A DNA stretch of 36,021 bases from Oscillospiraceae bacterium (GTDB taxonomy: Bacteria; Bacillota; Clostridia; Oscillospirales; Acutalibacteraceae), in NCBI GenBank assembly GCA_022779945.1, contig JALEYA010000132.1, forward strand, positions 1 to 36,021, in the 5' to 3' direction. Under the pieces are notes generated by a model. That model ran no database searches, was not told the origin of the DNA, and saw nothing but the letters and a program-made list of their open reading frames with translations. Within the stretch, counting starts at the first letter, position 1. Every line of letters starts with the position of its first letter. Below are positions 8,743-10,231 of the stretch, piece by piece. The translations under genes and the position numbers were made by a program.

Positions 8743-9165
8743 TTAATCCAGTGTTTTTTTCCCTAGACAACAAACAAAATAAGCTGTAACAGAACCAATA
8801 ATCTCAACAATTATGTCGAATATATCTCCAGTTCCGAACAGCAATCCAACATACTGAAGCACTTCGATGGTCGTCCCTATTAAAATTGGGATAAATATTT
8901 TAGCAACTCGGTTACGATAACCGTAAAACGCAGAACATCCTAAAGAATAAGCCCACAACATATCAGGTAAATAATACTTAAAAAAAGACCAATACCATAT
9001 ATTGCCGGTTTCAATATATGTAAATGAGCGGATTTTTCCAAACAACGGTAACCATTCCTCATATCTTGCAATAATTATATCGTGTCTAAAGAAAAGATAT
9101 ATTAAACAAGCGGCAAGAAAGGGTATGAAAAAGTTTAATAGTTTGAATATTCTATATCTATGCAT
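8743..9165 (-). CDS. VanZ-like membrane protein
   Basis: Four or so hydrophobic helices; DMLWAYSLGCSAFYG and IEVLQYVGLLFGTGDIFDIIVEIIGS pattern. Confidence 0.8.
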   Translation of the reverse strand: MHRYRIFKLLNFFIPFLAACLIYLFFRHDIIIARYEEWLPLFGKIRSFTYIETGNIWYWSFFKYYLPDMLWAYSLGCSAFYGYRNRVAKIFIPILIGTTIEVLQYVGLLFGTGDIFDIIVEIIGSVTAYFVCCLGKKTLD

Positions 9166-9175
9166 TAAGTTTAAA

Positions 9176-9589
9176 TTACCAATCACCACCAAAAATATAG
9201 AACAAACAATACGCTGCAACGATTACAATTCCGCCAATCTTCCAAGCCCAATCAAATTTTTCTGTTTTTTTCACATCTTTGTGATATGATTCAAAGTCAC
9301 CCTTGTAATGGAAAGTATTCACCAAAGTGGCATATTCATATTGACTTAAAGAAGCTACCGATTCAACTCCGTTTTTCCAAATGAGTTTAACCGAATATTT
9401 TCCTGCTATTGCAACATCACTACCAGATTGCAATTCATAACTTTTAAAACTTTGATCGGTGATATATGCCACCAGATGTAAGTCTTTATCATCATCGTCA
9501 AATGGAGCAATAAATAGTCTTTCCTCTCCGCCCATATATTTTGTACTTACAACATACCCGGCATATTTTCCTTTTTCAACTAATCCCAT
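9176..9589 (-). CDS. uncharacterised protein with C-terminal TM helix
   Basis: Good SD (GAAAGGATG) before ATG at 9589; C-terminal hydrophobic helix (IGGIVIVAAYCLFYIFGG); upstream of and co-directional with the VanZ-like gene. Confidence 0.75.
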   Translation of the reverse strand: MGLVEKGKYAGYVVSTKYMGGEERLFIAPFDDDDKDLHLVAYITDQSFKSYELQSGSDVAIAGKYSVKLIWKNGVESVASLSQYEYATLVNTFHYKGDFESYHKDVKKTEKFDWAWKIGGIVIVAAYCLFYIFGGDW

Positions 9590-9667: not shown

Positions 9668-9701
9668 AAAAATAAAAAAGTGCGCAGTCGAAACTACGCA
9701 C
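9668..9701 (-). terminator. intrinsic terminator ending the leader RNA
   Basis: GTGCGTAGT-TTCG-ACTGCGCAC (9 bp) followed by TTTTTTATTTTT. Confidence 0.9.
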
Positions 9702-9845
9702 AAAAAACACATAGCTCAACTGTCGCCAAACAAAATCTCTAACAAATCTCACAGAAGTAAGTGTATGCAGAAATAGAGCATATATGTTTTTATAAAAATA
9801 AAAACACTACACCCTGTGAGACTGAATATTCAGATTTTGTTTGGC
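9668..9845 (-). ncRNA. structured leader RNA candidate (riboswitch/attenuator-like), family unassigned
   Basis: Minus-strand RNA from about 9845: P1 GCCAAACAAAATCT/AGATTTTGTTTGGC (14 bp), P2 TCTCACAG/CTGTGAGA, hairpins GTTTTTAT-TTTT-ATAAAAAC and TATGC-N9-GCATA, antiterminator-like strand, then terminator. Confidence 0.7.
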
Positions 9846-9851
9846 AAATTC

Positions 9852-9880
9852 AGTATAGCACATTATTTTTTGTTTTGCAA
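9852..9880 (-). promoter_or_regulatory. sigma-A-type promoter with extended -10 driving the leader RNA
   Basis: TTGCAA - 17 nt - TATACT preceded by TGC (TGn) on the minus strand. Confidence 0.82.
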
Positions 9881-10155: not shown

Positions 10156-10231
10156 TGGAGCTACTGGTCGGACTCGAACCGACGACCTGCGCATTACGAA
10201 TGCGCTGCTCTACCAACTGAGCCACAGTAGC
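10156..10231 (-). tRNA. tRNA-Thr (anticodon CGT), CCA encoded
   Basis: GCTACTGTGGCTCAGTTGGTAGAGCAGCGCATTCGTAATGCGCAGGTCGTCGGTTCGAGTCCGACCAGTAGCTCCA folds as a cloverleaf; anticodon loop TTCGTAA. Confidence 0.97.

Follow-up and report, generated by a model that had tools for sequence, protein, structure and literature searches.

A structured RNA element on the minus strand of the window (the whole stretch of DNA analyzed, 36,021 nucleotides) is most probably, at a probability of about 0.8, a cis-acting transcription attenuator of a new Clostridia RNA family, in which a single strand, termed Y, is contested by an inner strand, termed X, and by the intrinsic terminator. An earlier note on this DNA had proposed a leader with mutually exclusive antiterminator and terminator belonging to no catalogued family. 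The layout is strongly supported by homologues and covariation, and an Rfam check of the window and its relatives gave no significant match. At the gathering threshold of Rfam 15 nothing was returned for the window or for 20 relatives, relaxed thresholds yielded sub-threshold chance matches, and neither the T-box nor the 6S (RF00013) models matched the window or its relatives. The literature search found no description of the element and no match to its sequence.

Architecture of the element and its family

The promoter, P1, P2, the GTTTTTAT/ATAAAAAC hairpin and the terminator that the earlier note had read from the sequence are all found in place on the minus strand (Table 1). The promoter is TTGCAA-17-TATACT with a preceding TG, and P1, described in that note as a perfect 14-bp helix, has these 14 perfect pairs and extends to 16 when the flanks are included. 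The terminator has the form GTGCGTAGT-TTCG-ACTGCGCAC-TTTTTT. The 175-nt RNA of the window has a calculated folding energy of -63.2 kcal/mol compared with -33.7 +/- 3.9 for shuffled sequences (z = -7.5, 0/200), and the minimum free energy structure contains P1, P2, the GTTTTTAT/ATAAAAAC hairpin and the antiterminator, with the terminator left out. The calculated energies of the competing pairings are similar, at -16.0 kcal/mol for the X-Y duplex, -13.4 for the antiterminator and -12.5 for the terminator. A further hairpin of the earlier note, TATGC...GCATA, is present in the window sequence, but relatives do not retain this hairpin; the conserved feature at this place is strand X, which is complementary to Y, a complementarity that the note had missed.

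Table 1. Positions of the parts of the element, of the genes that follow it and of the tandem arrays
Feature	Position	Strand	Remarks
Promoter	9852..9880	minus	-35 TTGCAA, 17-nt spacer, TG, -10 TATACT
P1 5' arm (TTGCCAAACAAAATCT)	9832..9847	minus	Predicted 5' end of transcript; fold and covariation
J1/2 internal loop (GAATATTCAG), conserved AAUA	9822..9831	minus	Column counts, 59 members
P2 5' arm (TCTCACAGGGTGTA)	9808..9821	minus	Fold; sequence and length vary among relatives
W strand = P3 5' arm	9798..9807	minus	Local partner of X
X strand (ATAAAAACATATATGCTCT) = P3 3' arm and conserved CUC	9775..9793	minus	Partner W or Y
P2 3' arm	9747..9765	minus	Fold
P1 3' arm (AGATTTTGTTTGGCGA)	9723..9738	minus	Fold and covariation
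Y strand (CAGTTGAGCTATGTGTTTTTT)	9702..9722	minus	5' strand of the antiterminator; pairs with X in the pseudoknot
Intrinsic terminator stem-loop and U-run	9674..9701	minus	Antiterminator formed by its 5' arm and loop with Y
First downstream ORF, 137 aa	9176..9589	minus	Start ATG 9589 after GAAAGGA; C-terminal hydrophobic segment; no Pfam match
Second ORF, VanZ-like membrane protein	8743..9219	minus	Pfam 27.1 bits, cut-off 30.1; overlaps first ORF
Tandem arrays	L089 G030:C26; L090 G033:C46; L091 G030:C53; L092 G242:C7; L093 G231:C21

The family comprises two classes, a short class with a P1-closed domain of mostly about 95-135 nt and a long class (about 145-190 nt) with an extra hairpin. Common to both are a promoter registered with P1, P1 itself, the AAUA internal loop, the inner strand X, the strand Y following P1 and the terminator. 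The X consensus is GGUAAAAAUGCAUnCUCU in the short class and AAAAAYGCAAAUUCC in the long class, and the Y consensus is GCAAUCGGAGUUAUGCGUUUUU. In 137 of 156 units the -10 box ends 4-6 nt upstream of P1, and the spacer is 17 in 120 of the 142 promoter-bearing units; transcription should therefore start at or just before P1. In the AAUA loop the second A is conserved in 55, the T in 51 and the last A in 50 of 59 members. Inspection by eye found no conserved leader peptide.

Covariation and the competing pairings of strand Y

Covariation was evaluated in 59 aligned short-class members with 500 shuffles and slid pairings as controls; the counts treat sequences as independent, and the slide controls reduce the effect of shared ancestry without fully removing it. 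In P1, 98.5% of cells are paired across the 59 members and two-sided changes occur at 7 of 10 pairs. The two-sided cells number 42 compared with 9.2 in shuffles (0/500), and no slid version exceeds 52% paired. Judged on this alignment the covariation of P1 is genuine beyond doubt. Compensatory change among homologues, on which the earlier note had staked its claim, is thus strong in P1, and it is modest in the antiterminator. The GCCAAAC/GTTTGGC motif recalls the R boxes of integron attC sites, a candidate that was rejected on inspection because the P1 sequence varies with compensation.

The X-Y pseudoknot is 91.9% paired, with 42 two-sided cells compared with 8.6 in shuffles (0/500) and a best slide of 62%. 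Two pairs are decisive, 78-167 (UA 23, CG 21, UG 14, never CA) and 79-166 (GC 44, AU 12). Changes of Y at columns 166 and 167 are matched by changes of X (C/U with G/A, G/A with C/U) while the antiterminator partners are fixed, and the X-Y pairing therefore appears to be under its own selection. The lengths of X and Y also change together in the long class, GCAATTCC with GGGGTTGC as against GCAAATTCC with GGAGTTTGC, and in both classes X pairs better with its own Y than with swapped ones (0/2000 shuffles). The local W-X pairing, which forms P3, is found in 78.7% of cells over the family with covariation above shuffles.

The antiterminator is formed by Y with Z, the latter comprising the 5' arm and loop of the terminator, and is 91.6% paired with 16 two-sided cells compared with 6.7 in shuffles (0/500); the excess of its covariation score is small (0.206 compared with 0.187). 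The X-Y and Y-Z pairings are mutually exclusive, as both use columns 157-167. The calculated energy difference between antiterminator and terminator is +0.2 +/- 2.6 kcal/mol in the short class and -1.5 +/- 2.7 kcal/mol in the long class, near-equal values as would be expected of a switch. The element thus carries a conserved alternative pairing that excludes the terminator, together with a conserved structured domain of sensor type having both covariation and conserved unpaired nucleotides.

Distribution, surroundings and downstream genes

Of 59 related genomes searched at the DNA level, 28 have similar elements. The promoter with the P1 5' arm and the P1 3' arm with the terminator are typically conserved in these matches and the middle is variable; the weakest include a few promoter-only similarities (L024-L026, L028). 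For genome surveys a covariance model was built on the 3' module. With it the module is found in 30 of 34 genomes of the genus, where the weakest matches could be chance terminators, in 104 of 295 genomes of the order and, at E <= 1e-6, in 91 of 391 genomes of the class, about a quarter. In a phylum sample of 300 genomes the window's own genome was the sole scorer, and the false-positive rate of the model is therefore low; genomes of other classes gave no match. A pattern scan of named genomes gave 73 stretches. Their titles are nearly all those of Oscillospiraceae, Ruminococcaceae/Ruminococcus or Clostridia MAGs, mostly from ruminant and other gut samples, and a MAG named Ruminococcus flavefaciens is among the carriers. 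In many genomes the element occurs five to thirteen or more times. The genome of the window has a single intact copy and a decayed one, the latter (L198, G000:C27:3603-3665) keeping X and Y and having a terminator that lacks the U-run.

A mobile-phage origin was considered and rejected, the element being found neither in IMG/VR nor in plasmids. Two unannotated faecal scaffolds labelled 'Bacteriophage sp.' do carry it. In MT837627.1 (L202) the element is preceded by a tyrosine integrase and followed by a zinc-ribbon gene; the genes of MT835845.1 (L203) are ordinary bacterial ones, and its label looks wrong.

In 18 of 134 units the element is preceded at 170-460 nt by a tRNA gene of the same strand, and in 4 by one of the opposite strand; these cases include orthologous ones and so are not all independent. 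The tRNA of the window is tRNA-Thr (10156-10231). Among the relatives examined G009 is the closest, with 82% identity through the upstream gene and the tRNA; the similarity ends at the tRNA 3' end, beyond which other accessory genes make the region completely different. The element therefore sits in a variable region, and the comparison suggests that this side of the tRNA is a hotspot for accessory genes.

In some genomes two to five complete promoter-RNA-terminator units form tandem arrays about 210-320 nt apart. Three of the arrays (L089, L090, L091) hold three to five units each and are free of intervening genes, and two arrays have truncated gene remnants between units, suggesting duplication of a leader together with its gene. 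A separate arrangement occurs at L178 (G498:C22:90200-92600), where one P1 domain is followed by two 3' modules, each with a P1-like 3' arm, Y strand and terminator, 72 nt apart; here one sensor may face two terminators in series.

Gene order and signals place the intrinsic terminator ahead of a gene in what would be the same transcription unit. The median distance from the U-run to the gene start is 27.5 nt, and 127 of 152 cases show a Shine-Dalgarno-like match; in the window the distance is 84 nt compared with usually within about 30 nt in the family. First downstream proteins look secreted in 62 of 109 cases (57%) compared with 40 of 333 neighbouring ORFs (12%; odds ratio 9.7, p = 7e-20), as called by a simple and crude rule for signal-peptide-like N termini that was the same for both sets. 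BspA-type leucine-rich repeat proteins account for 17 of the 109 and AMP-binding enzymes for 6; others include zinc-ribbon proteins, HTH regulators, M23 and CHAP hydrolases and CAP proteins, with an EcoRI-type methylase and Spo0A among the single cases. The AMP-binding enzymes are a recurrent target family, and those at L020, L103, L123, L130 and L136 have the N-terminal motif KLTG-PSIDKPW-KYY or a close variant. The downstream genes are very diverse and differ from copy to copy, so that the VanZ operon named in the earlier note is an incidental link: its second ORF is indeed VanZ-like, with a score below the cut-off, and its first ORF has no Pfam match.

Proposed mechanism and alternative readings

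In the proposed attenuator P1 closes a sensor-like domain holding the AAUA internal loop and the X strand, and Y, placed directly after P1, can form either the pseudoknot, with X, or the antiterminator, with the terminator's loop and 5' arm. With Y taken by X the terminator would be free and transcription would stop. With X held in the local W-X hairpin, Y would capture the terminator arm and RNA polymerase would read into the gene. A cellular signal (ligand, ion, protein or RNA) would shift the balance between W-X and X-Y. In preQ1-I-type transcription-OFF riboswitches a pseudoknot sequesters the antiterminator strand. The element resembles these in having a strand downstream of the aptamer-like domain, just before the intrinsic terminator, that is shared between pseudoknot and antiterminator; it differs in being much larger, with a long P1-closed domain, very diverse genes and no Rfam match. 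By this analogy we lean towards a signal that stabilises X-Y and turns the gene OFF. A geometric difficulty is that only about 7 nt link P1 to the pseudoknot part of Y, while X is at the distal end of P2; to form the pseudoknot the RNA would have to bend sharply at the AAUA loop or open P2.

The gene-less tandem arrays are odd for a pure leader and would also fit a stand-alone small RNA, either trans-acting or a 6S-like binder of RNA polymerase, to which the genes are mere neighbours. In favour of this reading, every unit comes with a promoter, 4-6 nt ahead of P1, and a terminator of its own, and the long closing helix, promoter-proximal 5' end and length of about 170-190 nt are like those of 6S RNA, a likeness raised in the earlier note. 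It does not hold up against the absence of an RF00013 match and the finding of canonical 6S elsewhere in 13 of 17 element-bearing genomes tested, and the elements are multi-copy leaders before an RBS and gene. The short, regular distance from U-run to RBS and start codon in most copies, the strong enrichment of secreted proteins in the gene set and the conservation of the mutually exclusive antiterminator pairing likewise make a stand-alone RNA improbable. That the element is an ordinary DNA repeat or intergenic palindrome with incidental folding is scarcely credible: it is multi-copy, sometimes beside tRNA genes and in variable regions, but the P1 sequence changes freely while pairing is kept, and promoter, terminator and gene start have a fixed order and orientation, so that covariation and orientation contradict this reading.

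The nature of the signal divides the attenuator reading further. A leader whose antitermination depends on a protein (LoaP, ANTAR or another RNA-binding protein), the protein then being the signal, is a variant of appreciable though lesser probability. A protein-controlled regulon would be in keeping with the great diversity of the genes and the long conserved helices, and the unpaired conserved AAUA and CUC could be protein contacts. Against it, LoaP is above cut-off in 0 of 24 element-rich genomes and an ANTAR protein is absent from 12 of the 24; the known ANTAR and LoaP RNA hairpins look different from the element. Either a new small-molecule riboswitch or an RNA-binding protein other than these two may account for the signal. 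Second-messenger control is a further candidate. The c-di-GMP (GEMM) riboswitches are numerous within a genome, precede a variety of genes for surface or secreted proteins and act by transcription control. The element is likewise multi-copy before varied and often secreted-protein genes, with apparent transcription control, and the 57% of first downstream proteins that look secreted or membrane-anchored recall known c-di-GMP regulons. Its sequence and structure differ, however, with no Rfam GEMM match, and a third of the element-rich genomes have no GGDEF match (8 of 24 tested, several of the 8 being >90% complete), so that a new class of c-di-GMP-type riboswitch controlling surface proteins is very unlikely.

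Type III toxin-antitoxin leaders (ToxIN/CptIN) also place a repeated structured RNA and an intrinsic terminator before a gene. In comparison with these systems (PMC4627078), each repeat of the element has its own promoter and terminator and the downstream genes are not one toxin family. The candidate motifs of three genome-wide surveys (PMC11109978, PMC8632094 and PMC8040213) are the same kind of object, an orphan structured leader with a terminator; a search of the texts found none attributed to Ruminococcus or Oscillospiraceae, and an unnamed overlap is possible in the supplementary tables of PMC8040213.

The opposition of terminator and antiterminator is a known principle; what is new here lies in the family, its conserved three-way choice, the coupling of promoter to P1, the tandem arrays and the secretome-rich targets. 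A bolder and rather unlikely extension is that this class-wide orphan riboswitch-like RNA, as a three-partner strand switch, jointly controls the secretome and further accessory genes in gut Clostridia. Since all copies have complementary X and Y strands, the short terminated RNAs might also act on one another in trans and so join scattered and tandem copies in one network. The switch is defined exactly enough to be testable, through X, Y and the terminator; the full-length and 3'-module alignments are a resource for ligand or protein hunting, and the secreted-protein-rich putative regulon offers a clue to the signal. The element would represent a large uncatalogued regulatory RNA family that numbers up to a dozen or more copies in a genome, and its carriers are abundant bacteria of rumen and gut about whose gene regulation little is known.
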